A stretch of 64,000 nt of DNA, from NCBI GenBank assembly GCA_029582155.1, contig CM055911.1, positions 29,745,741 through 29,809,740 on the forward strand, written 5' to 3'. The position numbers were made by a program, and so were the translations under genes. Shown here in pieces: positions 12,505-64,000 of this stretch (the stretch's first letter is position 1; each line of letters begins with the position of its first letter). This DNA comes from Panopea generosa (lineage: Eukaryota; Mollusca; Bivalvia; Adapedonta; Hiatellidae). Below the pieces are notes generated by a model, which was given only the letters and a program-made list of their open reading frames with translations, was not told the origin of the DNA and searched no databases.

Positions 12505-12756
12505 TCAGATCACGCCACGCGTAATACAGATCGGCACCAGAATCAGTCCAAACAAAGTCATGTTCCGTAACAATGCCTTCCATTCGCTCGGCACAGCATA
12601 CTTCGTTAGAGTAATGGTTACTGTGGAGATTTCATGACTGACACAGATAAATATGAAGCTGGTAAGTATTACATTCAGGACCGGGTAGCTAGGAATCATG
12701 ACTAAAACACCGTGAGTGTCCGCTGCCAACCAGATATGATACTGTGATATAAACAG
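12505..12756 (-). CDS. CASD1: CASD1 last coding exon with [10 protein letters not shown] motif and stop
   Basis: 252 bp including TGA (plus-strand 12505-12507), acceptor CATTTCAG. It encodes 83 residues: [77 protein letters not shown] and ITRGVI. It aligns with vertebrate [38 protein letters not shown] and has two final membrane helices. The tail after the last helix is short; the Lys-rich C-terminal end of vertebrate CASD1 is not seen. Confidence 0.96.
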
Positions 12757-28504: not shown

Positions 28505-31340
28505 AATCATGGATATGAATATTTGACAGCTTAATAAAGATGGTTGTTTTATACAGGTAAAATAAAATAAATTCACAAACATATAAGCATAATAAAGGTT
28601 GTTGTTCTATACAGGTTAAATAAACTTAATTCATGGACAAGAATAGTTGACAGCTTGATAAAGGTGGTTGTTTTATACTTATTTCATGGACAAGAATAGT
28701 TGACAGCTTGATAAAGGTGGTTGTTTTAAATTGGTTAAATAAACTAAATTCACAGACATGAAATGTTGACAGCTTGATAAAGCTTGTTGTTCTATACAGT
28801 TTAAATAAACTAAATTCATGGACATGAATAGTTGACAGCTTGATAAAGGTTGTTGTTCTATAAAGTATAAATAAACTAAATTCATGGACATGAATAGCTG
28901 ACATCTTGATAAAGGTGGTTGTTCTATACAGGTTAAATAAACTAAATTCATGGACATGAATAGTTGACAACTTAATAAAGGTGGTTGTTCTATATAGGTT
29001 AAATAAACTTAATTCACAAATATGAATAGTTAACAGCTTGATAAAGGTGGTTGTTCTTTATAGGTTAAATAAACTAAATTCATGGACATGAATAGATGAC
29101 AGCTTGATATAGATGGTTGTTCTATATAGGTTAAATAAATAAATTACACAAACATGAACAGTTGACAACTTGATATAGATGGTTGTTTTAAGTTAAATAA
29201 TCTAAATTCACAAACATGAATAGGTGACAGCGTAATAAAGGTGGTTGTTTTATACAAGTAAAATTAAATCACTGAAACGAAACTAAATTCATGGACAAGA
29301 ATAGTTTACAGCTTGATAAATGTTGTTGTTTTATAAAGTATAAATAAACTAAATTCATGGACATGAATAGTTGACAGCTTGATAAAGGTTGTTGTTCTAT
29401 AAAGTATAAATAAACTAAATTCATGGACATGAATAGTTGACAGCTTGATAAAGGTGGTTGTTCTATACAGATTAAATAAACATAATTCATGGACATGAAT
29501 AGTTGACAACTTAATAAAGGTGGTTGTTCTATATAGGTTAAATAAACTAAATTCACGAACATGAATAGTTGACAGCTAAATAAAGGTGGTTGTTCTATAT
29601 AGGTTAAATAAACTTAATTCATGGACAAGAATAGTTGACAGCTTGATAAAGGTGGTTGTTTTATACTTATTTCATGGACAAGAATAGTTGACAGCTTGAT
29701 AAAGGTGGTTGTTTTAAATTGGTTAAATAAACTAAATTCACAGACATGAAATGTTGACAGCTTGATAAAGCATGTTGTTCTATACAGTTTAAATAAACTA
29801 AATTCATGGACATGAATAGCTGACAGCTTGATAAAGGTTGTTGTTCTATCAAGTATCAATAAACTAAATCCATGGACCTGAATAGTTGACAGCTTGATAT
29901 AGGTTGTTGTTCATTAAAGTATAAATAAATTAAATTCATGGAAATGAATAGATGACAGCTTGATAAAGGTTGTTGTTCTATAAATATAAATAAACTAAAT
30001 TCATGGAAATGAATAGCCGACAGCTTGATAAAGGTTGTTGTTTCTATAAATATAAATTAACTAAATTCATGGACATGAATAGTTGACAGCTTGATAAAGG
30101 TTGTTGTTCTATAAATATAAATTAACTAAATTCATGGACATGAATAGTTGACAGCTTGATAAAGGTTGTTGTTCTATAAAGTATAAATAAACTAAATTCA
30201 TGGACATGAATAGCTGACATCTTGATAAAGGTGGTTGTTCTATACAGGTTAAATAAACTTAATTCATGGACATGAATAGTTGACAACTTAATAAAGGTGG
30301 TTGTTCTATATAGGTTAAATAAACTTAATTCACAAACATGAATAGTTAAAGCTTGATAAAGGTGGTTGTTCTTTATAGGTTAAATAAACTAAATTCATGG
30401 ACATGAATAGATGACAGCTTGATATAGATGGTTGTTTTAGGTTAAATAATCTAAATTCACAAACATGAATAGGTGACAGCTTAATAAAGGTGGTTGTTTT
30501 ATACAAGTAAAATTAAATCACTGAAATAAACTAAATTCATGGACGAGAATAGTTGACAGCTTGATAAATGTTGTTGTTCTATAAAGTATAAATAAACTAA
30601 ATTCATGGACATGAATAGTTGACAGCTTGATAAAGGTTGTTGTTCTATAAAGTATAAATAAACTAAATTCATGGACATGAATAGCTGACAGCTTGATAAA
30701 GCTGGTTGTTCTATACAGATTAAATAAACTTAATTCATGGACATGAATAGTTGACAACTTAATAAAGGTGGTTGTTCTATATAGGTTAAATAAACTAAAT
30801 TCACGAACATGAATAGTTGACAGCTAAATAAAGGTGGTTGTTCTATATAGGTTAAATAAACTAAATTCATGGACATCAATAGCTGACAGCTAAATAAAGG
30901 TGGTTGTTTTATAAAGTATAAATAAACTAAATTCATGGACATGAATAGCTGACAGCTTGATAAAGGTGGTTGTTCTAAACAGGTTAAATAAACTTAATTC
31001 ATGGACATGAATAGTTGACAACTTAATAAAGGTGGTTGTTCTATATAGGTTAAATAAACTAAATTCACGAACATGAATAGTTGACAGCTAAATAAAGGTG
31101 GTTGTTCTATATAGGTTAAATAAACTAAATTCATGGACATCAATAGCTGACAGCTTGATACAGATGGTTGTTTTAGAATGAATGAATGAATGAATGGTGT
31201 TTTACGGCACGTCGACACATAAATAGGTCATTTTGTGCGCGCAATGGTTGTTTTAGGTTAAATAATCTAAATTCACAAACATGAATAGGTGACAGCGTAA
31301 TAAAGGTGGTTGTTTTATACAAGTAAAATTAAATCACTGA
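28505..31340. repeat. 66-bp minisatellite array (about 43 units)
   Basis: Unit includes GACAGCTTGATAAAGGTGGT and AACTAAATTCATGGACATGA. Larger blocks recur: the variant junction TACTTATTTCATGGAC appears at 28677 and 29664, giving a higher-order period of about 1 kb. Units divisible by three leave partial open frames on the minus strand that are not genes. Interrupted at 31176-31243 by a small retroposon fragment. Confidence 0.93.
31176..31243 (-). mobile_element. 68-bp SINE 3'-end insertion in the 66-bp array
   Basis: Inserted sequence begins with four to five GAAT repeats on the plus strand, i.e. an (ATTC)n tail on the minus strand after a CGTGCCGTAAAACACC motif. It is flanked by a 12-bp direct repeat, ATGGTTGTTTTA, at 31164-31175 and 31244-31255, so it is a severely 5'-truncated retroposon. 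Confidence 0.75.
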
Positions 31341-33130: not shown

Positions 33131-34346
33131 CACAAATTTATAGGCATCGTGTCTGGGGAAAGCCTGCAGCCATGTCTCTCGGGAAGCTTGAGATATATAC
33201 TAATTCATAGGCACTTTGTCTGGGGAAAGCCTGCAGCCATGTCTCCTGGGAAGCTCGAGATATATACTAATTTATAGGCACTTTGTCTCGGGAAAGCCTG
33301 CAGCCATATCGCCCGGGAAGCTTGAGATATATACTAATTCATAGGCACTGTCTCGGGAAAGCCTGCAGCCATGTCTCCTAGGAAGCTCGAGATATATACT
33401 AATTTATAGGCACTTTGTCTCGGGAAAGCTTGCAACCATGTCTCCCGGGAAGTTTGAGATATATAATAATTGATAGGCATCATGTCTGGGGAAAGCCTGC
33501 AGCCATGTCTCCCGGGAAGTTCCGAGATATATACCAAATTATAGGCACTTTGTCTGGGGAAAGCCTGCTGTCATGTCTCCCGGGAAGCTCGTGATATATA
33601 CTAATTTATAGGCACTTTATCTGGGGAAAGCCTGCAGCCATGTCTCCTGGGAAGCTCGAGATATATACTAATTTATAGGCACTTTGTCTCGGGAAAGCTT
33701 GCAACCATGTCTCCCGGGAAGTTTGAGATATATACTAATTTATAGGCATCATGTCTGGGGAAAGCCTGCAGCCATGTCTCCCGGGAAGTTCGAGATATAT
33801 ACCAAATTATAGGCACTTTGTCTGGGGAAAGCCTGCTGTCATGTCTCCCGGGAAGTTTGAGATATGTACTAATTCATAGGCACTTTGTCTGGGGAAAGCC
33901 TGCAGCCATGTCTCCCAGGAAGCTCGAGATATATACTAATTTATAGGCACTTTGTCTGGGGAAAGCCTGCAGCCATGTCTCCCGGGAAGTTTGAGATATA
34001 TACTAATCTATAGGCATTGTGTCTGGGGAAAGCCTGCAGCCATGACTCCCTGGAAGTTCGAGATATATAATAATTTATAGGCACTTTGTCTGGGGAAAGC
34101 CTGCAGCCATGTCTCCCAGGAAGCTTGAGATATATTCTTATTTATAGGCACTTTGTCTGGGGAAAGCTTGCAGCCATGTCTCCCGGGAAGCTCGAGATAT
34201 ATTCTTATTTATAGGCACTTTGTCTGGGGAAAGCCTGCAGCCAGGTCTCCCGGGAAGCTCGAGATATATTCTTATATATAGGCACTTTGTCTGGGGAAAG
34301 CCTGCCGCCTTGTCTCCTGGGAAGCTCGAGATATATACTAGTTTTA
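33131..34346. repeat. 67-bp GC-richer minisatellite array (about 18 units)
   Basis: Unit contains GGGGAAAGCCTGCAGCCATG, TCTCCCGGGAAGCTCGAGAT and ATATACTAATTTATAGGCAC. It starts 14 bp from the candidate cassette exon. On the minus strand each unit has a CTTTCCCCAG stretch resembling a 3' splice site. The 67-bp period shifts reading frame every unit. Confidence 0.93.
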
Positions 34347-35546: not shown

Positions 35547-38500
35547 GTATGACAGTCAGGATGACCTTCTATGACATAATGATATGACAGTCAGGATGAC
35601 ATTCTATGACATTATTTTATGACAGTCTGGATGACCTTCTATGACAGTCTGGATGACCTTCTATGACAGTTTAGTTGACCTTTTATGGCATATTGTTACA
35701 ACAGTCAGCATGACCTTCTATGACATAATATTATGACAGTCAGGATGACCTTCTATGACAGTCCAGATGACCAACTATGACAGTAAGGATGAACTTCTAT
35801 GGCAGTCAGAATGACCTATTATGACAGTCAGGATGACCTACTATGACAGTCAGGATGACCTACTATGGCAGTCAGGATGATCTACTATGTTAGGATGGCC
35901 GACTATGACAGTCAGGATGACCTACTATGACAGTCAGGATGATCTATTATGACAGTCAGGATGATCTACTATGACAGTCAGGATGATCTATTATGGCAGT
36001 CAGGATGGCCTACTATGACAGTCAGGATGATCTACTATGGCAGTCAGGATGGCCTACTATGACAGTCAGGATGACCTACTATGACAGTCAGGATGATCTA
36101 TTATGACAGTCAGGATCATCTTCTATGGCAGTTAGGATGACCTACTATGACAGTCAGGATGATCTACTATGACAGTAAAGATGATATTCTATGACAGTGC
36201 AGTCAGGATAACTTACTATGACAGTCAGTATGACCAACTATGACAGTCACGATGACCGACTATGGCAGTCAGGATGACCTACTATGACATGACAGTCACG
36301 ATGACCTACTATGGCAGTCAGGATGTCCTACTATGACAGTCACGATGACCTACTATGGCAGTCAGGATGACCTACTATCACAGTCAGGATGACTTACTAT
36401 GACAGTCAGGATGGCCTTCTTTAACAGTCAGGATGACCAACTATGGCAGTCAGGATGATCTACTATGACAGTCAGGATGGCCTACTACAGCAGTCAGGAT
36501 GATTTTCTATGACAGTACAGTCAGGATGGCTGACTATGACAGTCATGAAGACCTACTATGATAGTCACGATGACCTACTATGACAGTCATGATGACCTAC
36601 TATGACAGACATGATGACCTACTATGGCAGTCACGATGACCTACTATGACAGTCAGGATGACCTTCTATGGCAGTCAGGATGATCTACTATGACAGTCAG
36701 GATGGCCAACTTTGACAGTCAGAATGGCCAACTATGACCATCAGGATGATCTTCTATGACAGTGCAGTCAGGATGGTCTACTATGGCAGTCGGGATGACC
36801 TACTATGGCAGTCAGGATGACCTACTATGACATGGCAGTCAGGATGACTTACTATGGCAGTCAGGATGACCTACTATGACAGTCACAATGACCTACTATG
36901 GCAGTCAGGATGACCTACTATGACAGTCAGGAAGACCTACTATGACATTCAGGATGATCTTCTATAAGTCAGGATGACCTACTATGGCAGTCAGGATGAC
37001 CTTCTAAAGCAGTCAGGATGATCTACTATGACAGTCAGGATGGCCAACTATGACAGTCAGGATGGCCAACTATGACAGTCAGGGTGACCTACTATGGCAG
37101 TCAGGATGATATTCTATGACAGTGCAGTCAGGATGGTCTACCATGGCAGTCAGGTTGACCTACAATGACAGTCCGGATAACCTTGATCTTGATAATCTTC
37201 TATGACAGTGCAGTCAGGATGACTGACTATGACAGTCAGGAAGACCTTCTATGACAGTCAGGATGGCCTACTATGACAGTCAGGATGACTTACTATGACA
37301 GTCAGGAAGACATACTATGACAGTCAGGATGACCTACTATGGCAGTCAGGATGAACTACTATGGCAGTCAGGATGATCTTCTATGACAGTGCAGTCAGGA
37401 TGATCTACTATGACAGTCAGAATGACCTACTATGACAGTGCAGTCAGGATGACAGACTATGACAGTCAGGAAGACCTACTATGACAGTCAGGATGACCTA
37501 CTATGGCAGTCAGGATGACCTACTATGGCAGTCAGGATGATCTACTATGACAGTCCCGCTGACCTACTATGACAGTGCAGTCAGAATGTCTGACTATGAC
37601 AGTCAGGATGATCTACTATGACAGTCCGGATGACGTACTATGGCAGTCAGGATGATCTTCTATGACAGTGCAGTCAGGATGTCTGACTATGACAGTCAGG
37701 ATGATCTACTATGACAGTCAGGATGGCCTACTATGGCAGTCAGGATGATATACTATGGCAGTCAGGATGACCTACTTTGGCAGTCAGGATGACCTACTAT
37801 GGCAGTCAGGATGACCTACTATGGCAGTCAGGATGACCTACTATGGCAGTCAAGATGACCTACTATGACAGTCAGGATGATCTACTATGGCAGTCAGGAT
37901 GACTTACTATGACAGTCAGGATGACCTACTATGGGAGTCAGGATGATCTACTATGGGAGTCAGGATGATCTTCTATGACAGTCAGGATGGCTGACTATGG
38001 TGATGGCCTATTATGACAGTCAGGATGACCTACTTTGGAAGTCAGGATGATCTTCTATGACAGTGCAGTCAGGATGACTGACTATGACAGTCAGGATGGC
38101 CAATTATGAAAGTCAGGATGGCCTACTATAACAGTCAGGATGATGATCTACTATGACAGTCAGGATGGCTGACTATGGCAGTCAGGATGGCCTACTATGA
38201 CAGTCAGGATGACCTACTTTGGAAGTCAGGATGATCTTCTAAGACAGCGCAGTCAGGATGACTGACTATGACAGTAAGGAAGACCTACTATGACAGTCAT
38301 AATGATCTACTATGACAGTCAGGATGGCTGACTATGGCAGTCAGGATGATCTTCTATGACAGTCAGGATGATCTTCTATGACATTGCAGTCAGGATGACT
38401 GACTATGATATTCAGGATGACCTACTATGACAGTCAGGATGATCTACTATGACAGTCAGGATGATCTACTATGGCAGTCAGGATGATCTTCTATGACAGT

Positions 38501-39860
38501 GCAGTCAGGATGGCCTACTATGGTAGTCAGGATGGCCTACTATGACAGTCTGGATGATCTACTATGGCAGTCAGGATGACCTACTATGACAGTCAGGATG
38601 GCCTATTATGACAGTCAGGATGATCTTCTATGACAGTGCAGTCAGAATGGTTTACTATGATAGTCAGGAAGACTTACTATGACAGTCAGGAAAATCTACT
38701 ATGGTAGTCAGGGTGACCAACTATGGCAGTCAGAAAGACCTACTATGACAGTCAGGAAGATCTACTATGACAGTCACAATGACCAACTATGACAGTCAGG
38801 ATGATCTACTATGACAGTCAGGATGGCAGACTATGGCAGTCAGGATGATCTTCTATGACAGTGCAGTCAGGATGGTCTACTATGACAGTCAGGATGACCT
38901 ACTATGACAGTGCAGTCAGGATGACAGACTATGACAGTCAGGAAGACCTACTATGGCAGTGCAGTCAGGATGACAGACTATGACAGTCAGGATGATCTAC
39001 TATGGCAGTCAGGATGATCTTCTATGACAGTGCAGTCAGGATGATCTACTATGACAGTCAGGATGACTTACTATGACAGTGCAGTCAGGAAGACCTACTA
39101 TGACAGTCAGGATGATCTACTGTGGTAGTCAGGATGATCTAATATGGCAGTCAGGTTGGCCTACTTTGAAAGTTAGGATGATCTACTATGGCAGTCAGGA
39201 TGGCCTACTATGAGTCAGGATGATCTACTACGGCAGTAAGGATGGCCTTCTATGACAGTCAGGATAATCTACTATAGCATTAGGATGACCCAATAAGGCA
39301 GTCAGGATGATCTACTACAACAGTGCAGTCAGGATGACCGACTATAGCAGCCAAGATGACCAACTATGACAGTCAAGATGACCTACTATGGCAGTCAGGA
39401 TGACCTACTATAGCAGTCAGGATGATCTTCTATGACAATGCAGTCAGGATGACCTACTACGGCAGTCAAGATGACCTACTATCACAGTCAGAAAGACCTA
39501 CTATGACAGTCAAGATGATCTACTATGGCAGTCAGGATGACTGACTATGACAGTCAGGATGCCCTTCTATGAAAGTAAGGATGACCTACTATGACAGTCA
39601 GGGTGACCTTCTATGGCAGTCAGGAAGACCTATTATGGCAGTCAAGATGGTCTACTATGACAGTCAGGATGACCTACTATGGCAGTCAGGATGACCTACT
39701 ATGGCAGTCAGGATGACCTTCTATGGCAGTCAGGATGACCTACTATGACAGTCAGGATGACCTACTATGGCAATCAGGATGATCTACTATGGCAGACTGG
39801 ATGACCTACTATGACAGTCAGGATGACCTACTATGGCAGCCAGAATGACCTACTATGACA
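35547..39860. repeat. 22-bp minisatellite array, 4.3 kb (about 190 units)
   Basis: Unit AGTCAGGATGACCTACTATG plus AC or GC. Variants alternate (CTAC/TTCT, TGAC/TGGC, occasional GTGCAGTCAGG expansions), giving mosaic higher-order patterns. No coding potential. Confidence 0.95.
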
Positions 39861-39965: not shown

Positions 39966-42034
39966 CTGGTGACACTAGCAAACAAATTTTGTGACACCAC
40001 CTCACTTACTTGGTGACACAAGCTCACATACCTGGTGACACCAGCTCACATATTTGGTGACACTAGCTCACTTACTTGGTGACACCAGCTCACTTACTTG
40101 GTGACAACAGCTCACATGCTTGGTGAAACTAGCTCACATAATTGGTGATACTAGTTCACTTACTTGGTGACACCTGCTCACATACTTGGTGACACCAGCT
40201 CACTTACTTGGTGACACCAGCTCATTTACTTGGTGACACTTGCTCACATATTTAATGAAACCAGCTCACATACTTGGTGACACCAGCTGACATACTTGGT
40301 GACACCAGCTCTCATACTTGGTGATACCAGCTCTCTTACTTGGTGACAACAACTTACATATTAGTGACACTAGCTCACTTGGTGACACCAGCTCACTTAC
40401 TTGGTGACACAAGCTCACATTCTTGGTGACACTAGCTCACTTACTCGGTGACACCAGCTTACATACTTGGTGAGACTAGCTCACATACTTGGTGACACCA
40501 GTTCACATACTTGGTGATACTAGCTCACATGTTTAATGACACCAGCTCACATACTTGGTGACACCAGTTCACAAACTTGGTGACACAAGCTCACATATTT
40601 AATGACACCAGTTCATATACTTGGTGACACCAGCTCACATACTTTTGACACCAGCTCACATATTTGGTGACTCAAGCTCAAATACTTGGTGACACCAGCT
40701 TACATACTTGGTGACACCAGCACTCATATTTGGTGACACTAGCTCACATACTTGGTGACACCAGCTAACATATTTTGGTGACATCAGCTCACATATTTGG
40801 TGACACCAGCTCACATACTTTGTGACACCAGCTCACATACTTGGTGACACCAGCTCACATACTTTGTGACACAAGCTCACATACTAGTTGACAACAGCTC
40901 ACATACTTGGTGACACCAGCTCACATACTTGGTGACACCAGCTCACTTACTTGGTGACACAAGCTCACATACTAGGTGACAACAGCTCACATACTTGGTG
41001 ACACCAGCTCACATACTTGGTGACACCAGCTCACTTACTTGGTGACACTTGCTCACATACTTTGTGACACTATCTCACATATTTTATGAAACCAGCTCAC
41101 AAACTTGGTGACACCAGCTCTCATACTTGGTGACACAAACTTTCTTACTTGGTGACACCAGCTCTCTTACTTGGTGACACCAACTTACATATTTGGTGAC
41201 AGTAGCTCATTTGGTGACACCAGCTCATGTACTTGGTGACACCAGCTCACTAACTTCGTGACACCAGCTCACTAACTTGGTGACACAAGCTCACATACTT
41301 GGTGACACTAGCTCACTAACTTGGTGACACCAGCTTACTTACTCGGTGAGACTAGCTCACATACTTTGTGACACCAATTCACATACTTGGTGATACTAGC
41401 TCACATATTTAATGACACCAGCTCACATACTTGGTGACACCAGTTCACAAACTTGGTGACACTAGCTCACGAATTTAATGAAATCAGCTCACATACTTGG
41501 TGACACCAACTCACATACTTGGTGTCACCAGCTCTCATACTTGGTGTCACCAGCTCTCATACTTGGTTACACCAGCTCACATACTTGGTGACACCAGCTC
41601 TCATACTTGGTGACAACAACTTACATATTAGTGACACTAGCTCACATACTTGGTGACACCAGCTCTCACATACCTGGTGACACAAGCTCACATACTTGGT
41701 GACACTCACTCACATATGTAATGACAGCAGCTCACAAACTTGGTGACACCAGCTCACATACCTGATGACACCCGCTCAGATATTTAATGACACCAGCTAA
41801 CATACTGTGTGACAGCAGCTCACATACTTGGTGACACTAGCTCACATATTTGGTGACAGCAGTTCACATACTTGGTGACACCAGCTCACATACTTGGTGA
41901 ACCTTGCTCACATATTTGGTGACAGCAGCTCACATAATTGGTGACACTAGCTCACATACTTGGTGACACTAGCTCACATACTTGGTGACAGCAGCTCACA
42001 TACTTGGTGACACCAGCTCACATACTTGGTGATA
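39966..42034. repeat. Second 22-bp minisatellite array, 2.1 kb (about 94 units)
   Basis: Unit CACATACTTGGTGACACCAG plus CT, with a variant carrying TTTAATGAC in place of CTTGGTGAC. It starts about 105 bp after the preceding array but has an unrelated sequence. Confidence 0.95.
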
Positions 42035-44598: not shown

Positions 44599-44718
44599 CT
44601 GGCAGTAGCGGAACAGGCCAAATTCTCCTTTCTTCCAGAAGTATGTGAAATGTCCATAGCCAGTCAAAAACAGGTAACACGATACGAGGACTCGGATATG
44701 CATGTAAATTGGCAACAC
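44599..44718 (-). CDS. CASD1: CASD1 coding exon with MHIRVLV / GYGHF motifs
   Basis: 120-bp, phase 0-0 exon, acceptor ATATTACAG, consensus donor GTGAGT. It reads VLPIYMHIRVLVSCYLF then LTGYGHFTYFWKKGEFGLFR and YCQ. MHIRVLVxxYLFxTGYGHFxYFWxKGxFGxxRxCQ is the hallmark block of CASD1 and is shared with fungal Cas1p-type capsule O-acetyltransferases. The next residues expected from homology, VLFRLN, are supplied by the exon at 22488-22644. Confidence 0.96.
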
Positions 44719-47242: not shown

Positions 47243-47332
47243 CTTACTGGCTCCTGTCAGATGATATATCAATATGACCAGCTGCATCCAGCCCTTCCAC
47301 TCATCTGTCTGGTCCCTGTGTAGTACCTCAGT
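47243..47332 (-). CDS. CASD1: CASD1 coding exon whose 5' end is copied into the adjacent satellite
   Basis: 90-bp, phase 0-0 exon: [17 protein letters not shown] then [13 protein letters not shown], donor GTACAG, acceptor [24 protein letters not shown] is a strongly conserved CASD1 block. The first 26 coding bases (plus-strand 47307-47332) and the 37 intronic bases before them (47333-47369) are identical to the consensus of the 63-bp unit repeated through the next 10 kb. Because the protein segment matches vertebrate CASD1, the exon is the source and the satellite is derived. Confidence 0.94.
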
Positions 47333-47550
47333 CTATAAACATTACAGCATAATTACATAACAAGCTAACGTCTGGTCCGTGTGTAGTACCTCAGTCTATA
47401 AACATTACAGCATAATTACATAACAAGCTAATGTCTGGTCCCCGTGTAGTACCTCAGTCTATAAACATTACAGCATAATTACATAACAAGCTAACGTCTG
47501 GTCCCTGTGTAGTACCTCAGTCTATAAACATTACAGCATAATTACATAAC

Positions 47551-50500
47551 AAGCTTATGTCTAGTCCCTGTGTAGTACCACAGTCTATAAACAATACAGC
47601 ATAGTTACATAACAAGCTAACATCTGGTCCCTGTGTAGTACCTCAGTCTATAAACATTAAAGCATAATTACATAACAAGGTAACGTCTGGTCCCTGTGTA
47701 GTACCTCAGTCTATAAACATTACAGCATAATTACATAACAAGCTAACGTCTGGTCCCTGTGTAGTACCTCAGTCTATAAACATTACAGCATAATTACATA
47801 ACAAGCTAACGTCTGGCCCTGTGTAGTACCTCAGTCTATAAACATTACAGCATAATTACATAACAAGCTAACGTCTGGTCCCTGTGTAGTACCTCAGTCT
47901 ATAAACATTATAGCATAATTACATAACAAGCTAAAGTCTGGTCCCTGTGTAGTACCTCAGTCTATAAACATCACAGCATATTTACATACATGTAACAAGC
48001 TAACGTCTGGCCCTGTGTAGTACCTCAGTCTATAAACATTACAGCATAATTACATAACAAGCTAACGTCTGGCCCTGTGTAGTACCTCAGTCTATAAACA
48101 TTACAGCATAATTACATAACAAGCTAACGTCTGGTCCCTGTGTAGTACCTCAGTCTATAAACATTACAACATAATTACATAACAAGCTAAAGTCTGGTCC
48201 CTGTGTAGTACCTCAGTCTATAAACATTACAGCATAATTACATAACAAGCTAAAGTCTGGTCCCTGTGTAGTACCTCAGTCTATAAACATTACAGCATAA
48301 TTACATAACAAGCTTACATCTGGTCCCTGTGTAGTACCTCAGTTTATAAACATTACAGCATAATTACATAACAAGCTTAAGTCTGGTCCCTGTGTTATAC
48401 CTCAGTTTATAAACATTACAGCATAATTACATAACAAGCTAATGTCTGGTCCCTGTGTAGTTCCTCAGTCTATTAACATTACAGCATAATTACATAACAA
48501 GCTAACGTCTGGTCCCTGTGTAGTACCTCAGTCTATAAACAATACAGCATAATAACATAACAAACTAACGTCTGGTCCGTGTGTAGTACCTCAGTCTATA
48601 GCATTACAGCATAATTACATAACAAGCTAACGTCTGGTCCCTGTGTAGTACCTCAGTTTATAAACATTACAGCATAATTACATAACAAGCTTACATCTGG
48701 TCCCTGTGTAGTACCTCAGTTTATAAACATCACAGCATAATTACATAACAAGCTTACATCTGGTCCCTGTGTAGTACCTCAGTCTATAAACATAACAGCA
48801 TAATTACATAACAAGCTTACATCTGGTCCCTGTGTAGTACCTCAGTCTATAAACATTACAGCATAATTACATAACAAGCTAAAGTCTGGTCCCTGTGTAG
48901 TACCTCAGTTTATGAACACTACAGCATAAATACATAACAAGCTAACGTCTGGTCCCTGTGTAGTACCTCAGTCTATAAACATTGTAATACAGCATAATTA
49001 CATAACAAGCTAACGTCTGGCCCTGTGTAGTTCCTCAGTCTATAAACATTACAGCATAATTACATAACAAGCTAATGTCTGGTCCCTGTGTAGTACCTCA
49101 GTCTATAAACATTACAGCATAATTACATAACAAGCTAAAGTCTGGTCCCTGTGTAGTACCTCAGTCTATAAACATTACAGCATAATTACATAACAAGCTT
49201 ACATCTGGTCCCTGTGTAGTACCTCAGTTTATAAACATTACAGCATAATTACATAACAAGCTAAAGTCTGGTCCCTGTGTAGTACCTCAGTTTATAAACA
49301 TTACAGCATAATTACATAACAAGCTTACATCTGGTCCCAGTGTAGTACCTCAGTTTATAAACATTACAGCATAATTACATAACAAGCTAAAGCCTGGTCC
49401 CTGTGTAGTACCTCAGTTTATAAACATTACAGCATAATTACATAACAAGCTACCGTCTGGTCCCTGTGTAGTACCTCAGTCTATTAACATTACAGCATAA
49501 TTACATAACAAGCTAACGTCACGTCCGTGTGTAGTACCTCAGTCTATAAACATTACAGCATAATTACATAACAAGCTAACGTCTGGTCCCTGTGTAGTAC
49601 CTCAGTTTATAAACATTACAGCATAATTACATAACAAGCTAACGTCTGGTCCATGTGTAGTACCTCAGGCTATAAACATTACAGCATAATTACATAACAA
49701 GCTAACGTCTGGTCCATGTGTAGTATCTCAGTCTATAAACATTACAGCATAATTACATAACAAGCTAAAGTCTGGTCCCTGTGTAGTACCTCAGTTTATA
49801 AACATTACAGCATAATTACATAACAAGCTTATGTCTAGTCCCTGTGTAGTACCACAGTCTATAAACAATACAGCATAGTTACATAACAAGCTAACATCTG
49901 GTCCCTGTGTAGTACTTCAGTCTATAAACATTAAAGCATAATTACATAACAAGGTAACGTCTGGTCCCTGTGTAGTACCTCAGTCTATAAACATTACAGC
50001 ATAATTACATAACAAGCTAACGTCTGGTCCATGTGTAGTACCTCAGTCTATAAACATTACAGCATAATTACATAACAAGCTAAAGTCTGGTCCCTGTGTA
50101 GTACCTCAGTTTATAAACATTACAGCATAATTACATAACAAGCTAACGTCTGGTCCCTGTGTAGTACCTCAGTCTATAAACATTACAGCATAATTACATA
50201 ACAAGCTAACGTCTGGTCCGTGTGTAGTACCTCAGTCTATAAACATTACAGCATAATAACATAACAAGCTAACGTCTGGTCCATGTGTAAAAAAACTCAG
50301 TTCATAAACATTAATGCATAATTACATAACAAGCTAACGTCTGGTTCCTTTGTAGTACCTCAGTCTATAAACATTACAGCATAATTACATAACAAGCTAA
50401 CGTCTGGTCCGTGTGTAGTACCTCAATCTATAAACATTACAGCATAATAACATAACAAGCTAACGTCTGGTCCATGTGTAGTACCTCAGTCTATAACATT

Positions 50501-51654
50501 ACAGCATAATTACATAACAAACTAACATCTGGTCCCTGTGTAAAAGAAACTCAGTTTATAAACATTAATGCATTATTACATAACAAGCTAACCTCTGGTC
50601 ACTGTGCAGTACCTCAGTCTATAAACATTACAGCATAATTACATAACAAGCTAACATCTGGTCCCCGTGTAGTACCTCAGTCTTTAAACATTACAGCATA
50701 ATTACATAACAAGCTAACGTCTGGTCCCCGTGTAGTACCTCAGTCTATAAACATTACAGCATAATTACATAACAAGCTAACGTCTGGTCCGTGTGTAGTA
50801 CCTCAGTCTATAAACATTACAGCATAATTACATAACAAGCTAACTTCTGGTCCATGTGTAGTACCTCAGTCTATAAACATTACAGCATAACTACATAACA
50901 AGCTAACTTCTGGTCCCCATGTAGTACCTCAGGCTATAAACATTACAGCATATTTACATTACAAGCTAATGTCTGGCCCTGTGTAGTACCTCAGTCTATA
51001 AACATTACAACATAATTACATAACAAGCTAACGTCTGGTCTCCATGTAGTACCTCGGTCTATAAACATTACAGCATAATTACATAACAAGCTAACGTCTG
51101 GTCCATGTGTTGTACCTCAGTCTATAAACATTACAACATAATTACATAACAAGCTGATGTCTAGTCCCTGTGTAGTACCTCAGTCTTTTAATATTACAGC
51201 ATAAATACATAACAAGCTAACGTCTGGTCCATGTGTTGTACCTCATTCTATAAACATTACAGCATAATTACATAACAAGCTACCATCTGGTCCCTGTGTA
51301 GTACCTCAGTCTATAAACATTACAGCATAATTACTTAACAAGCTAACGTCTAGTCCCTGTGTAGTACCTCAGTCTATAAACATTACAGCATATTTACATA
51401 ACAAGCTACCGTCTGGTCCCTGTGTAGTACCTCAGTCAATAAACATTACAGCATAATTACATAACAAGCTAACGTCTGGTCCCTGTGTAGTACCTCAGTC
51501 TATAAACATAACAGCATATTTACATAACAAGCTAATGTCTGGTCCCCGTGTAGTACCTCAGTCTATAAACATTACAGCATAATTACATAACAAGCTAACG
51601 TCTGGTCCCTGTGTAGTACCTCAGTCTATAAACATTACAGCATAATTACATAAC
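47551..51654. repeat. Higher-order block 1 of the 63-bp array (about 4.1 kb)
   Basis: The series of unit variants is reproduced in order in block 2. Marker variants: CCACAGTCTATAAACAATAC (47578 and 51682), a CATACATGTAACAAG insertion (47985 and 52151) and an AAAAAACTCAGTTC variant (50289 and 54456). Offsets are 4104, then 4166-4167, a difference of one 63-bp unit. Confidence 0.88.
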
Positions 51655-54600
51655 AAGCTTATGTCTAGTCCCTGTGTAGTACCACAGTCTATAAACAATA
51701 CAGCATAGTTACATAACAAGCTAACATCTGGTCCCTGTGTAGTACCTCAGTCTATAAACATTAAAGCATAATTACATAACAAGGTAACATCTGGTCCCTG
51801 TGTAGTACCTCAGTCTATAAACATTAAAGCATAATTACATAACAAGGTAACGTCTGGTCCCTGTGTAGTACCTCAGTCTATAAACATTACAGCATAATTA
51901 CATAACAAGCTAACGTCTGGTCCCTGTGTAGTACCTCAGTCTATAAACATTACAGCATAATTACATAACAAGCTAACGTCTGGCCCTGTGTAGTACCTCA
52001 GTCTATAAACATTACAGCATAATTACATAACAAGCTAACGTCTGGTCCCTGTGTAGTACCTCAGTCTATAAACATTATAGCATAATTACATAACAAGCTA
52101 AAGTCTGGTCCCTGTGTAGTACCTCAGTCTATAAACATCACAGCATATTTACATACATGTAACAAGCTAACGTCTGGCCCTGTGTAGTACCTCAGTCTAT
52201 AAACATTACAGCATAATTACATAACAAGCTAACGTCTGGCCCTGTGTAGTACCTCAGTCTATAAACATTACAGCATAATTACATAACAAGCTAACGTCTG
52301 GTCCCTGTGTAGTACCTCAGTCTATAAACATTACAACATAATTACATAACAAGCTAAAGTCTGGTCCCTGTGTAGTACCTCAGTCTATAAACATTACAGC
52401 ATAATTACATAACAAGCTAAAGTCTGGTCCCTGTGTAGTACCTCAGTCTATAAACATTACAGCATAATTACATAACAAGCTTACATCTGGTCCCTGTGTA
52501 GTACCTCAGTTTATAAACATTACAGCATAATTACATAACAAGCTTAAGTCTGGTCCCTGTGTTATACCTCAGTTTATAAACATTACAGCATAATTACATA
52601 ACAAGCTAATGTCTGGTCCCTGTGTAGTTCCTCAGTCTATTAACATTACAGCATAATTACATAACAAGCTAACGTCTGGTCCCTGTGTAGTACCTCAGTC
52701 TATAAACAATACAGCATAATAACATAACAAACTAACGTCTGGTCCGTGTGTAGTACCTCAGTCTATAGCATTACAGCATAATTACATAACAAGCTAACGT
52801 CTGGTCCCTGTGTAGTACCTCAGTTTATAAACATTACAGCATAATTACATAACAAGCTTACATCTGGTCCCTGTGTAGTACCTCAGTTTATAAACATCAC
52901 AGCATAATTACATAACAAGCTTACATCTGGTCCCTGTGTAGTACCTCAGTCTATAAACATAACAGCATAATTACATAACAAGCTTACATCTGGTCCCTGT
53001 GTAGTACCTCAGTCTATAAACATTACAGCATAATTACATAACAAGCTAAAGTCTGGTCCCTGTGTAGTACCTCAGTTTATGAACACTACAGCATAAATAC
53101 ATAACAAGCTAACGTCTGGTCCCTGTGTAGTACCTCAGTCTATAAACATTGTAATACAGCATAATTACATAACAAGCTAACGTCTGGCCCTGTGTAGTTC
53201 CTCAGTCTATAAACATTACAGCATAATTACATAACAAGCTAATGTCTGGTCCCTGTGTAGTACCTCAGTCTATAAACATTACAGCATAATTACATAACAA
53301 GCTAAAGTCTGGTCCCTGTGTAGTACCTCAGTCTATAAACATTACAGCATAATTACATAACAAGCTTACATCTGGTCCCTGTGTAGTACCTCAGTTTATA
53401 AACATTACAGCATAATTACATAACAAGCTAAAGTCTGGTCCCTGTGTAGTACCTCAGTTTATAAACATTACAGCATAATTACATAACAAGCTTACATCTG
53501 GTCCCAGTGTAGTACCTCAGTTTATAAACATTACAGCATAATTACATAACAAGCTAAAGCCTGGTCCCTGTGTAGTACCTCAGTTTATAAACATTACAGC
53601 ATAATTACATAACAAGCTACCGTCTGGTCCCTGTGTAGTACCTCAGTCTATTAACATTACAGCATAATTACATAACAAGCTAACGTCACGTCCGTGTGTA
53701 GTACCTCAGTCTATAAACATTACAGCATAATTACATAACAAGCTAACGTCTGGTCCCTGTGTAGTACCTCAGTTTATAAACATTACAGCATAATTACATA
53801 ACAAGCTAACGTCTGGTCCATGTGTAGTACCTCAGGCTATAAACATTACAGCATAATTACATAACAAGCTAACGTCTGGTCCATGTGTAGTATCTCAGTC
53901 TATAAACATTACAGCATAATTACATAACAAGCTAAAGTCTGGTCCCTGTGTAGTACCTCAGTTTATAAACATTACAGCATAATTACATAACAAGCTTATG
54001 TCTAGTCCCTGTGTAGTACCACAGTCTATAAACAATACAGCATAGTTACATAACAAGCTAACATCTGGTCCCTGTGTAGTACTTCAGTCTATAAACATTA
54101 AAGCATAATTACATAACAAGGTAACGTCTGGTCCCTGTGTAGTACCTCAGTCTATAAACATTACAGCATAATTACATAACAAGCTAACGTCTGGTCCATG
54201 TGTAGTACCTCAGTCTATAAACATTACAGCATAATTACATAACAAGCTAAAGTCTGGTCCCTGTGTAGTACCTCAGTTTATAAACATTACAGCATAATTA
54301 CATAACAAGCTAACGTCTGGTCCCTGTGTAGTACCTCAGTCTATAAACATTACAGCATAATTACATAACAAGCTAACGTCTGGTCCGTGTGTAGTACCTC
54401 AGTCTATAAACATTACAGCATAATAACATAACAAGCTAACGTCTGGTCCATGTGTAAAAAAACTCAGTTCATAAACATTAATGCATAATTACATAACAAG
54501 CTAACGTCTGGTTCCTTTGTAGTACCTCAGTCTATAAACATTACAGCATAATTACATAACAAGCTAACGTCTGGTCCGTGTGTAGTACCTCAATCTATAA

Positions 54601-55760
54601 ACATTACAGCATAATAACATAACAAGCTAACGTCTGGTCCATGTGTAGTACCTCAGTCTATAACATTACAGCATAATTACATAACAAACTAACATCTGGT
54701 CCCTGTGTAAAAGAAACTCAGTTTATAAACATTAATGCATTATTACATAACAAGCTAACCTCTGGTCACTGTGCAGTACCTCAGTCTATAAACATTACAG
54801 CATAATTACATAACAAGCTAACATCTGGTCCCCGTGTAGTACCTCAGTCTTTAAACATTACAGCATAATTACATAACAAGCTAACGTCTGGTCCCCGTGT
54901 AGTACCTCAGTCTATAAACATTACAGCATAATTACATAACAAGCTAACGTCTGGTCCGTGTGTAGTACCTCAGTCTATAAACATTACAGCATAATTACAT
55001 AACAAGCTAACTTCTGGTCCATGTGTAGTACCTCAGTCTATAAACATTACAGCATAACTACATAACAAGCTAACTTCTGGTCCCCATGTAGTACCTCAGG
55101 CTATAAACATTACAGCATATTTACATTACAAGCTAATGTCTGGCCCTGTGTAGTACCTCAGTCTATAAACATTACAACATAATTACATAACAAGCTAACG
55201 TCTGGTCTCCATGTAGTACCTCGGTCTATAAACATTACAGCATAATTACATAACAAGCTAACGTCTGGTCCATGTGTTGTACCTCAGTCTATAAACATTA
55301 CAACATAATTACATAACAAGCTGATGTCTAGTCCCTGTGTAGTACCTCAGTCTTTTAATATTACAGCATAAATACATAACAAGCTAACGTCTGGTCCATG
55401 TGTTGTACCTCATTCTATAAACATTACAGCATAATTACATAACAAGCTACCATCTGGTCCCTGTGTAGTACCTCAGTCTATAAACATTACAGCATAATTA
55501 CTTAACAAGCTAACGTCTAGTCCCTGTGTAGTACCTCAGTCTATAAACATTACAGCATATTTACATAACAAGCTACCGTCTGGTCCCTGTGTAGTACCTC
55601 AGTCAATAAACATTACAGCATAATTACATAACAAGCTAACGTCTGGTCCCTGTGTAGTACCTCAGTCTATAAACATAACAGCATATTTACATAACAAGCT
55701 AACGTCTGAACCTGTGTAGTACCTCAGTCTATAAACATTACAGCATTACATAACAAGCTT
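51655..55760. repeat. Higher-order block 2 of the 63-bp array
   Basis: Near-identical second copy of block 1, with one additional ACATTAAAGC-type unit near 51780-51845. High similarity suggests a very recent duplication or an assembly duplication. Confidence 0.88.
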
Positions 55761-55794
55761 ACGTCTGGTCCATGTGTAGTACCTCAGTCTATAA

Positions 55795-56865
55795 GGCCTA
55801 AAAAAATAAATGATGTGTTTAAGGTTTCATGCTGAAAAAAAATTGGGTCGGTAGGTAGGACTATTTTTTTTTTTTGGCTGATTTTTTTAGATGCAAAATC
55901 AAAGGGTTGGTGTTTTTTGGTTATTTTTTTCTTCATTTTCTCTCGCAGTTACTCAATTTTGAATGCGAAGTAATGACACCTTTTTCAAAAGCATTTGGTG
56001 ACAACATAATTATTGTATACTTTAGTAGTTTGTCTGCTTTTGTAGTTTGAATGTTTTCCTTTCCACTTTCAATATATTCTCATTTGTTCTGCACCATGTG
56101 CACCATATTGTAATAGGTTAGATTGGGTATTCAACAGAATATGTTAAAAAAGTATTATTAAATATATAAAAGGAATTTAATTTTATATATTTAATATATC
56201 TGTGAAAATATTTCAAAACTACCTACCAATTTTGACACTTGGACATAATCCTGAATTTCAAAGTCTTAACAAGTGCTTATGTAGATAAATATCCGCTTTG
56301 ATCTTGCGATTTTCCCGTCCAATAAAAAAACAAGGCAAATACCGGAAAATAGTCCGATGTTTAAACCGAGATTAGAAAGTTGCACATGCGCGCCTTGATA
56401 CCTTATACAAAAAATGGCGAACGATTCGCAATGAATAGATTCCTTGGAGATTCAACAAGAATTTCCTCGTGTTATAACTTATTGCCGAGGAACATTCAAT
56501 GTCTAGTTTGCAAATGATTTAATAATTATAATTGCGTTGAAATGTAGAAAGAATAAATTCTGTAACCATTTCAGAAACGAATTTGTGTCATTTCTTTTTC
56601 ACAGTTTTTCAGATTGTTTACTTTTGGTCTTCAGGCACAGTTGTGCTTCGAATTTCAAGTCGCACTTTTCTAAAAGTTTCGTCTTTGGTATACAGTTTTA
56701 TATATTGGTGTTCGCCCGATACTTGGAGCACCTGAACCATCCCTAACACGACAGTCGGCGAATTATTTTAAAATTTTTTTTTTTTGAAAAAAAAAATATA
56801 CGGTCGGGACCTTTTACTATGGGTCGGTCGGGAAACCGTTAACACAACATTTATTTTTTTAGGCC
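55795..56865. mobile_element. Harbinger-like nonautonomous DNA element, 1071 bp, with TAA target duplication
   Basis: Ends GGCCTAAAAAAATAAATG and its reverse complement CATTTATTTTTTTAGGCC. It is flanked by TAA at 55792-55794 and 56866-56868; the interrupted satellite unit has a single TAA there, so the 3-bp duplication is certain. A TWA-type 3-bp target is typical of PIF/Harbinger. The interior is AT-rich with no transposase; the 69-codon frame at 56537-56746 has no recognisable domain. Confidence 0.8.
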
Positions 56866-57045
56866 TAAACATTACAGCATAATTACATAACAAGCTAAAG
56901 TCTGGTCCCTGTGTAGTACCTCAGTCTATAAACATTACAGCATAATAACATAACAAGCTAACGTCTGGTTCCCGTGTAGTACCTCAGTCTATAAACATTA
57001 CAGCATAATTACATAACAAGCTAACGTCTGGTCCCAGTGTAGTAC

Positions 57046-57211
57046 ACGGCTTTCATTAAGTTTTGAAGTAGTAGGGTGAAAGGAAAAAGTAGAAGGGGGG
57101 TCTAGGGGTCCTCTGCCAAAAAACAGAAGAAACTCAGCTAAAAATAGCCGTGTGTTCAAGTAAAAATAGCCAGGGGAAATCCCCAGCACCCGGCTTCTCA
57201 TGACAGCCCTG
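57046..57211. mobile_element. 166-bp insertion in the 63-bp array with 7-bp target duplication
   Basis: Interrupts a unit between two copies of GTAGTAC (57039-57045 and 57212-57218). The ends (ACGGCTTTCATTA and TCATGACAGCC) form an imperfect inverted repeat. Noncoding; family unknown. Confidence 0.7.
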
Positions 57212-57367
57212 GTAGTACCTCAGTCTATAAACATTACAGCATAATTACATAACAAGCTAACAGTTAACAGAATACAGGAAAACACCCTTGTTTGTAGACA
57301 GGTCATGTCAAGTTTCATAACTTTGTTTGTCGGGTGTATAATAAAGGGAGATAGGTATGTATTTTAC

Positions 57368-57476
57368 CTTATCAGTACTTTCTGTAAAGAAGAATCCGAG
57401 AATCATCACATAGGCAAAAGGAAGAAAGAAGTTCACATGGGTGTAATACTTGTTCTCCTTCATGAAGAAATTCGTC
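57368..57476 (-). CDS. CASD1: CASD1 coding exon with MKENKYYTH motif
   Basis: 109-bp exon, acceptor TTATTCCAG, donor GTAAAA. It completes Arg and reads TNFFMKENKYYTHVNFF then LPFAYVMILGFFFTESTDK, ending in phase 0. MKENK(F/Y)YTH is one of the most conserved CASD1 blocks, followed by a transmembrane helix. The exon lies only 107 bp from the end of the 63-bp satellite array that fills the next intron. Confidence 0.94.
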
Positions 57477-58879: not shown

Positions 58880-61800
58880 ATCAAGAGTGGACATGGAAAT
58901 GGTATGGTCAATAGAGGACACTATAATGGTATGGTCAATAGTTGACATTGAAATGGTCTGGTCAAATGAGGGCACTGAAATGGTATGGTCAATAGTGGAC
59001 AATGAAATATTATGGTCAAGAGTGGACACTAAAATGGTTTGGTCAAGAGTGGACACTGTAATGGTTTGATCAAGAGTGGACACTGAAATATTATTGTCAA
59101 GAGTGGACACTGAAATATTATGGTCAAGAGTGGACACTGAAATGGTGTGGTCAATAGTGGATACTGAAATGGTAAAGTCAAGAGTGGACACAGAAATGGT
59201 ATGGTCAAGAGTGGACACTGAAATGGTATAGTCAAGAGTGGACACTGAAAAGCTATGGTCAAGAGTGGACACTGAAATGGTATGATCAAGAGTAGACACT
59301 GCAATGGTATGATCAAGAGTGGACAATGAAATGGTATGGTCAAGAGACGACATTGAAATGTTATACTTAAAAGTGAACACTGAAATGGTATGGTCAAGAG
59401 TGGATACTGAAATGTTACGGTCAAGAGTGGACACAGAAATGCTATGGTTGAGAGTGGACACTAAAATGGTATGGTCCAGAGTGGACACTGAAACTGTATG
59501 GTCAATAGTGGACACTGAAATGTTATGGTCAAGAGTGGACACTGCAATGGTATGGTCAAGAGTGGACACTGAAATGTTACGGTCAAGAGTGGGCACTGAA
59601 ATGCTATTGTCAAGAGTGGACACTGAAATAGAATGGTCAAAAGTGGACACTGAAATGGTATGGTCAAGAGTGGGCACTGAAATGCTATGGTCAAGAGTGA
59701 ACACTGAAATAGCATGGTCAAAAGTGGACACTGAAATGGTATGGTCAAGAGTGGACACTGAAATTGTATGGTCAATAGTGGAAAATGAAATGTTATGGTA
59801 AAGAGTGATCAATGCCATGTTATAGTCAAAAGAGGACACTGAAATAGTATGGTCAAGAGTGGACGCTGAAATTTTATAGTCAATAGTGGACAATGAAATT
59901 GTATGGTCAACAGTGAACACTGAAATGTAATAGTCAGGGAGTGGACACTGAAATGGTATGGTCAATAGTGGACACTGAAAAATTATAGTCAATAGTGGAC
60001 ATTGAAATGGTGTGTCTAATAGTAGACACTGAAATGTTATAGTCAAAAGTGAACACTGAAATGTTATGGTCAGGAGTGGACACTGAAATGGTATGGTCAA
60101 GAGTGGACACTAAAATGGTATGGTCAAGAGTGGACACTGAAATTCTATGATCAAGAGTGGACACTGAAATGGTATTGTCAAGAGTGGACACTAATTTGGT
60201 ATAGTCAAGAATGGACACTGTAATGGTTTGGTCAAGAGTGGACACTGAAATGTTATGGTCAAGAGTGGACACTGAAATGTTATGGTCAAGAGTGGACACT
60301 GAAATGGTATAGTCAAGAGTGAACACGGTAATTGTTTGGTCAAGAGCAGACACTGAAATGTTATGGACAAGAGTGGACACTGAAAAATTATGGTCAAGAG
60401 TGGGCACTGAAATGGTATGGTCAAGAGTGGACACTGAAACAGTATGGTCAATAGTAGACACTGAAATGGTATGGTCAAGGTTGGACACTGAAATGTTATG
60501 GTCAAGAATGGACACTGTAATGGTTTGGTCAAGAGTGGACACTGAAATGTTATGGTCAAGAGTGGACACTGAAATGGTTTGGTCAATAGTGGACACTGAA
60601 ATGGTATGGTCAGGGTGGACAATGAAATTGTATGGTCAAGTGTGGACAGTGAAATGGTTTGGTCAAGAGTGGACACTGCAATGGTATTGTCAAGAGTGGA
60701 CACTGAAATAGTATTGTCAAGAGTGGACACTGAAATGTTACAGTCATGAGAAGGCACTGAAATGGTTAGGTCAAGAGTGGACACTAAAATAGTATGGTCA
60801 AGAGTTGATACTGAAATGTTATGGTCAAAAGTGGACACTGAAATGCTATGGTCAAAAGTGGACACTGAAATATTATAGTCAAGAGTGGACACTGCAATGG
60901 TAAGGTCAAGAGTGGACACTGAAATGGTATGGTCAAGAGTGGACACTGAAATGGTATAGTCAAGAGTGAACACGGTAATTGTTTGGTCAAGAGCAGACAC
61001 TGAAATGTTATGGACAAGAGTGGACACTGAAAAATTATGGTCAAGAGTGGACACTGAAATGGTATGGTCAAGAGTGGATACTGAAATGGTAAAGTCAAGA
61101 GTGGACACAGAAATGGTATGGTCAAGAGTGGACACTGAAATGGTATAGTCAAGAGTGGACACTGAAAAGCTATGGTCAAGAGTGGACACTGAAATGGTAT
61201 GATCAAGAGTAGACACTGCAATGGTATGATCAAGAGTGGACAATGAAATGGTATGGTCAAGAGACGACATTGAAATGTTATGGTCAAGAGTGGACACTGC
61301 AATGGTATGGTCAAGAGTGGACACTGAAATGGTATTGTCAAGAGTGGACACTGAAATGTTACAGTCACGAGTGGGCACTGAAATGGTTTGGTCAAGAATG
61401 GACACTGAAATAGTATGGTCAAAAGTGGACACTGAAATGGTATGGTCAAGAGTGAAATGGTATTGTTGAGAGTGGACACTGAAATGGTATGGTCAAGAGT
61501 GGACACTGAAATGGTACGGTCAAGAGTGGACACTGAAATGCTACTGTCAAGAGTTGATATTGAAATGCTATGGTCGAGAGTGACACTGAAGTGGTATGGT
61601 CAAGAGTGGAAACTGAAATGTTATGGTCAAGAGTGGACACTGCAATGTCATAGTCAAGAGTGGACACTGAAATGGTATTGTCAAGAGTGAACACTGAAAT
61701 GTTATAGTCAATAGAGGACACTGAAATGATATGGTCAAGAGTGGACACTGAAATGGTGTAGTCAAGAGTGGACACTGAAATGTTACAGTCACGAGTGGGC

Positions 61801-61985
61801 ACTGAAATGGTTTGGTCAAGATGGACACAGAAATAGTATGGTCAATAGTGGACACTGAAATGGTATGGTTGAGAGTGGACACTGAAATGGTATGGTTGAG
61901 AGTGGACACTGAAATGGTGTAGTCAAGAGTGGACACTGAAATGGTATGATCAAAAGTGGACACTGAAATGGTATGGTCAAAAGCA
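58880..61985. repeat. 27-bp minisatellite array, 3.1 kb (about 115 units)
   Basis: Unit GAAATGGTATGGTCAAGAGT plus GGACACT. The period is nine codons with no stop in several frames, so both strands show long open frames (minus VSTLDHTIS-type, up to 417 codons; plus EMVWSRVDT-type). Higher-order repetition: the variant GAGACGACATTGAAATG occurs at 59343 and 61260. It lies within a CASD1 intron, between the exons at 58077 and 62249. Confidence 0.95.
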
Positions 61986-63333: not shown

Positions 63334-64000
63334 GTATTGTTGCCAGTCTAGATTCAATACTATTTAAAAAGTACCGTCGCCAGTCTAAAATCAATACTAT
63401 TCAATAGTACTGTTGCCAGTCTAAAATCAATATCATTCAAAAGTATTGTCACCAGTCTAAAACAAATACTATTCAAAAATACTTTCGCCATTATAAACTC
63501 TCAATACTATTCAAAAGTACTGTTGCCAGTCTTAAAACATTACTATTCAAAAGTACTGTCGCCAGTCTAAAATTAAAACTATTCAAAAGTACTGTCACCG
63601 GTCTAAAATCAATACTATTCAAAAGTACTGTTGCCAGTCTAAAATTAACACTATTTAGAAGTAGTGACACCAGTCTTAAATCAATACTATTCAAAAGTAC
63701 TGTCGCCTGTCTAAATTCAATTCTATTCAAAAATACTTTTGCCATTATAAACTCTCAATACTATTCAAAGTACTGTTGCCAGTCTTAAAACAATACTATT
63801 CAAAACTACTTTTGCCATTATAAACTCTCAATACTATTCAAAAGTACTGTTGCCAGTCTTAAAACAATACTATTCAAAAGTACTGTCGCCAGTCTAAAAT
63901 TAATACTATTCAAAAGTACTGTCACCAGTCTAAAATCAATACTATTCAAAAGTACTGTTGCCAGTCTAAAATTAACACTATTCAAAAGTACTGTTGCCAG
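63334..64000. repeat. 36-bp minisatellite array running off the window
   Basis: Unit CAATACTATTCAAAAGTACT plus GTCGCCAGTCTAAAAT, about 18 units seen. Variants CTTTCGCCATTATAAACTCT recur in a higher-order pattern (63484, 63739 and 63809). In the intron upstream of the first exon seen; its true length is unknown. Confidence 0.93.

Follow-up and report, generated by a model that had tools for sequence, protein, structure and literature searches.

A 63-bp minisatellite across the acceptor junction of CASD1 exon 13 in Panopea generosa

The CASD1 locus and its 63-bp array

The stretch analyzed here (the window, 64,000 nucleotides at G000:C18:29745741-29809740 of a Panopea generosa assembly of 1.47 Gb in 39 contigs) carries part of a CASD1 gene on its minus strand. 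The intron between exons 12 and 13 of this gene (E12 and E13; Table 1) is occupied by a tandem array whose unit reaches across the 3' splice junction into the coding sequence. Read on the minus strand, the 63-bp unit joins 37 nt of intron, with TTTATAG at its end, to ACTGAGGTACTACACAGGGACCAGAC, the opening 26 coding nt of E13.

From 57261 down to 47307 the sequence is filled by 63-bp units except for two inserts. Tandem Repeats Finder (TRF) reports an array of 134.5 copies with 92% matches at 47307-55794, plus 2.9 copies at 56866-57045, and a wrap-around alignment of the unit resolves three blocks (57261-57207, 57045-56866, and 55794-47307). The acceptor columns of this alignment number 138, that is, the real acceptor and 137 upstream copies, and the first exon base of the real copy is 47332. 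A sequence-only reading of the stretch had already given the unit as 37 bp of intron with TTTATAG plus 26 coding bases of the CASD1 exon, which was right almost to the base, and its estimate of about 138 copies agrees with the 138 columns counted.

Both inserts are transposon-like and account for the two gaps between the array blocks. When a 901-bp query from insert B was searched against the assembly, and the best 40 of 1335 first-look candidates were scored, at least 39 other places matched at 96 to 98% over query positions 1-540. As related sequence is found at so many places at this identity over part of the element, insert B was probably active recently.

Table 1. Features of the CASD1 region around the array (window positions; the inserts lie within units of the array)
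Feature	Position	Strand	Description	Basis
Exon E12	57368..57476	-	upstream CASD1 exon; ends ...ESTDK; donor AAG/GTAAAA	Pfam PF07779, tblastn, junction listing
Single-copy intron sequence	57262..57367	-	106 nt; the sole such part of the intron	unit alignment
First unit in transcription order	57212..57261	-	cut by insert A after 50 bases, all 50 as in the founder; decoy acceptor just before 57224	
Insert A	57046..57211		within a unit; 166 bp, with one GTACTAC flanking repeat included; ends hAT-like by eye	
Further units	56866..57045	-	about 3 units	TRF, wrap-around alignment
Insert B	55795..56865		within a unit; 1071 bp, with one flanking TTA included; ends inverted, GGCCTAAAAAAATAAATG	
Main 63-bp array	47307..55794	-	about 135 units	TRF, wrap-around alignment
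Founder (real) unit	47307..47369	-	productive acceptor TTTATAG/ACTGAG, split at 47333/47332	wrap-around alignment, consensus
Exon E13	47243..47332	-	90 nt; donor AAG/GTACAG	Pfam PF07779, exon BLAST, junction listing
Exon E14	44599..44718	-	120 nt; VLPIYMHIR; phase 0 continuation	junction listing

The peptide encoded by E12 and E13 matches the Cas1_AcylT domain (PF07779) with an E value of 4.8e-36, and protein positions 1-67 correspond to profile positions 91-157, with equal lengths across the junction. The donor of E13 is read as AAG/GTACAG because E14 (44718-44599) continues in phase 0. In total we placed 17 acceptors and 17 donors of CASD1, from window position 12756 to position 72164 of the extended coordinates (ext), which cover the window and four adjoining 10-kb stretches. 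Conservation of the coding part has three bases, namely, the Pfam match, a paralogue, and the human CASD1 sequence. The paralogue is a second Cas1_AcylT gene on contig C11 (G000:C11:31348616-31358217), where a single 339-amino-acid open frame covers positions 172-481 of the 482 in the profile; read by eye, its homology starts at RDQTEEWKG, adjoining a TCTAG, perhaps an intron end at a slightly different position. A search of solved structures gave 0 matches. Six other tandem arrays lie within the CASD1 span, at 28624-31172, 33135-34344, 35548-39860, 39967-42032, 58881-61980, and 63334-64000, with units of about 66, 67, 22, 22, 27, and 36 bp, respectively, and exon BLAST of these six found no exon copies.

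Founder and growth of the array

The consensus of the array is the real unit at 63 of 63 positions. Mean identity, computed within just one of the two duplicates in the main array (see below), is 96.1% between the units and the real unit and 93.1% from unit to unit, which describes a star around the founder. In a search for a dispersed satellite, a 127-bp query produced 139 genome matches, all of them at the CASD1 array locus, and no copies at other loci were found (counts are lower bounds). With the consensus equal to the real unit and every match local, the exon is the founder, as the sequence-only reading had claimed; the coding part of the unit also lies in the conserved domain PF07779. 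Identity between units is flat with distance (0.927 to 0.935), which rules out a higher-order repeat of units.

Since only 106 nt precede the first unit, and the intronic part of one unit adds 37 nt, the intron before expansion can be put at 143 nt, while the intron now measures 10,035 nt. Growth may have started when a slip or an unequal exchange copied a 63-bp piece lying over the 3' splice junction of exon 13; further rounds, perhaps ending with a 4.2-kb doubling, would have enlarged the intron to its present length. The array would then be, for the most part, a passive by-product of a genome in which minisatellites tend to grow. Such a history represents a route to intron growth by many kilobases and a satellite born from a known founder.

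On the minus strand, 47618-51535 equals 51785-55702 (3,918 bp, offset 4167, 0 mismatches). This exact duplicate is either a recent segmental doubling or an assembly artefact, and because of it the copy number of the array rests on the assembly. We regard it as unlikely, though deserving real weight, that misassembly has inflated the copy number of an array that is real and about half as long. The doubling of 3,918 bp without a mismatch, though units differ by about 7%, speaks for this, but a recent doubling would look alike, and a shortened array would still hold about 72 units. As a sign of length instability between alleles, the 3.9-kb exact doubling, seen in one assembly, is suggestive only.

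Decoy splice signals and the choice of acceptor

The 137 upstream acceptors end in AG in 107 cases, in AA in 26, in TG in 2, and in GA in 2. All 107 AG-bearing copies are followed by an in-frame stop 21 to 60 nt on, most commonly at 51 nt (75/107), and none of the 107 keeps the frame open into the real exon. These counts bear out two expectations of the sequence-only reading, which were about 100 decoys with intact AG and an in-frame stop after any earlier copy. Of the 137 decoys, 54 are identical to the real acceptor over positions -20 to +3, 8 over -37 to +26, 2 over -63 to +26, and 0 over -100 to +26. When the acceptors were scored with a leave-one-out position weight matrix (PWM) built on the 16 other acceptors of CASD1, 84 of the 137 decoys scored at or above the real E13 acceptor and 30 above it. 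With 54 decoys identical over -20 to +3 and 84 scoring at least as high, the real acceptor cannot be told from the decoys by local strength. Sequence strength is the usual confounder of splice-site choice; in the 54 decoys that share the real -20 to +3, what is left is position and exon context. On the donor side, GT is kept at GAG/GTACTA in 128 of the 138 units, and U1 pairing is -7.9 kcal/mol for the E13 donor versus -5.7 for the in-array donors (120/138 units).

The sequence-only reading had placed the real acceptor in the last copy in transcription order. This follows from geometry, as just one copy is still continuous with the remainder of the exon, which makes the real copy the last in an acceptor array and the first in a donor array. 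Splicing to the last copy, which we infer from coding conservation, most likely proceeds via exon definition, and we favor this mode because the encoded protein needs the last copy. Sites would be paired across exon 13, rescuing the mRNA; the exon 13 donor would find its partner in the closest acceptor upstream, that of the last copy, the decoys being without the exon body. Use of a decoy would yield early-stop mRNAs, which are presumably destroyed. The available part of PMC9225289 distinguishes two rules, an intron-centric proximity rule that applies to short introns and an exon-centric one for exons between long introns, and documents cross-exon pairing between long introns in human data and minigenes. 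In CASD1 the two rules diverge, as the intron-centric one leads to the first copy (a 143-nt intron) and the exon-centric one to the last. We think that rescue by exon definition is somewhat the better supported outcome.

Several points weigh against this account. The real E13 acceptor is the second weakest of the 17 in CASD1 by PWM score. The intron-centric rule predicts use of the first decoy because the 143-nt intron persists as the donor plus the first unit, and an upstream bias in the choice of 3' sites persists between long introns, where it is only weaker, as far as the accessible text of PMC9225289 goes. The array also contains 99 AG-to-GT decoy exons with both splice sites, 85 of them of 69 nt, and the in-array donor pairing of -5.7 is that of E7, a presumed working CASD1 donor; with donors that pair like E7 and both splice sites present, exon definition could pick decoy exons too. 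The 3.9-kb exact duplicate, for its part, could be an assembly error.

These decoy exons, together with GT in 128/138 units and AG in 107/137, always with its in-frame stop, would also suit a functional array, in which decoy acceptors (with 69-nt decoy exons) are used, as in poison exons, or act as binding sites for splicing factors, so that CASD1 output is reduced or regulated. We consider such a role improbable. Similar arrays are found at exon edges of unrelated genes (see below), and 14 of 72 units (one duplicate copy) carry an A in place of the G at position -1, with 12 inferred changes versus a mean of 2.25 per column, the third highest of the 63 columns, unlike what would be expected of maintained decoys. 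The same excess of change might be taken as selection silencing harmful decoys, to which we give even less credence. Columns -37, +17, +26, and -35, all outside the acceptor, show 17, 13, 11, and 9 changes, and 107 of the 137 decoys keep AG, which leaves selection against decoy AGs unsupported; in addition, the tree of the 63-bp units is weak and the changes appear, by eye, to be linked to markers of neighboring units, so that independent changes at -1 were probably few. A reading in which the acceptor came from, or was converted by, a satellite already present, and the exon is not the founder, is barely credible, since 26 of the 63 unit bases code for a conserved domain and all 139 genome matches are local, even if other unrelated tandem arrays do occupy neighboring introns.

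Mirage repeats and junction copies elsewhere in the genome

Tandem repeats over an exon-intron boundary, on either side of the exon, have been described as "mirages" in the amphioxus Adh3 and globin genes, where they apparently leave splicing undisturbed (PMC3087553, in the portion available), and the accessible part of PMC3902484 adds troponin C and PGBD5. The CASD1 unit straddles such a boundary with 37 intronic and 26 coding nt, and many of its copies keep their splice signals (AG in 107/137, GT in 128/138). By structural definition the array is almost certainly a mirage minisatellite, and it is an extreme case of this repeat type. The kind of structure is thus not new, having been published for amphioxus. 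Taken as a whole, a mirage minisatellite that is mostly passive, with the mRNA rescued by cross-exon pairing, is the likely description of the CASD1 array. What it adds to the known mirages is the size of the array, another animal genome (1.47 Gb), a sampled rate, and a control.

As reported in the parts of these papers available, the amphioxus mirages (Adh3, BflGb6/BflGb9, troponin C, and PGBD5) share with CASD1 the boundary-spanning tandem copies, in acceptor and donor cases, and AG or GT kept in many but not all copies. They differ in size, with 6 and 3 units in two BflGb6 haplotypes and a triplication in PGBD5, whereas we find about 138 acceptor units here and about 81 donor units in a kinesin gene (see below). 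In the internal tandem repeats of human segmental duplications, minisatellite expansion at a boundary likewise alters gene structure, but those repeats average a 30-bp unit in four copies and novel introns were proposed for them, while in CASD1 an existing intron was enlarged (PMC2812944, in part). A tandem duplication within a gene is also tied to intron structure in the potato RNA-dependent RNA polymerase, where it comes with a gained intron, no satellite being mentioned in the portion available (PMC4974935). Rival 3' sites in one transcript were the subject of the duplicated-site competition of Reed and Maniatis (as described in the available part of PMC9225289); those were laboratory experiments, and CASD1 offers a natural array of 138. 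Among the literature matches listed, no title dealt with the CASD1 locus or with arrays this large, and the phrase "mirage minisatellite" had 0 matches.

Within CASD1 itself, 3 of the 34 junction windows have junction-spanning local copies, namely, the E13 acceptor and the donors of E8 and E4. The E8 donor has several diverged copies that include about 18 coding nt and the donor, in 115-bp units (3.9 copies) at ext 67430-66880 (about C18:29812620-29813170), and the E4 donor has one copy of 80% identity over 69 bp. Further matches at the E3 acceptor and the E10 and E17 donors were left out as distant, and one at the E16 donor as not junction-spanning.

Outside CASD1, we used self-BLAST on the exon edges of two families, at 60 loci (the top 30 among 81 matches for myosin and the top 30 among 126 for kinesin), with the strand of all 60 set from the listed strand. 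The sampled exon edges are those of the hidden Markov model (HMM) matches, of which 16/60 contain stops, and at 12 loci we located the exon boundaries by eye. Junction-spanning copies were found at 6 of 120 edges, as acceptors in L033 and L045 and as donors in L023, L028, L046, and L069; L023 and L045 are neighboring exons of one gene. A seventh edge, in L068, was dropped because its HMM match begins inside an ATG-rich repeat, and the arrays of L042, L056, and L078, which end about 7 to 34 nt outside the exon, are uncounted. Together with the three CASD1 junctions, these six edges show that the array is not a one-off.

By the same test, 24 of 180 random positions in the flanks were duplicated, and none of the 60 exon middles. 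The 24 random matches fall in 16 of the 60 loci, including 3 in L068, 2 in the TCA-rich L041, and 1 in the junction array of L069. A junction hotspot is ruled out, as random flanks are duplicated at least as often (24/180 versus 7/120 or 6/120). Fisher tests against 24/180 give p values of 0.051 for 7/120, 0.019 for 6, and 0.009 for 5, the count left when L068 is dropped and the central position alone is used, with a random set unfiltered for repeats of the L068 type and with three chances for each edge and one for each random position. A depletion of tandem copies at junctions is suggested and not established by this comparison, in which the random set was filtered differently from the edges.

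The kinesin locus L069 (L081, G000:C11:30819001-30826900) has a donor array with a 43-bp unit repeated about 81 times over 3.5 kb. GT is present in all 72 of its copies matched by pattern, and in U1 pairing 60 of the 71 decoy donors equal the real one, 4 are clearly stronger, 3 slightly stronger, and 4 weaker; four copies read AGG/GTAAGT, which is stronger than the real donor. This array is the mirror test of the acceptor case. We put forward tentatively, and with slightly more doubt than belief, that the genome holds a large class of junctions inside their own satellites (about 1 in 20 sampled edges, up to 138 copies, on both sides of exons) that are ignored through strict cross-exon pairing. 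If true, this class would amount to a standing, genome-wide natural experiment, with position as the one variable and local splice-site strength held fixed.

Two kinesin exons on C3, at 268755-273301 (plus strand) and 4500416-4505040 (minus strand), have equal or nearly equal scores in opposite orientation and may be an inverted or an assembly duplicate. Many of the P450 matches cover the domain with one intronless open frame of about 500 amino acids.

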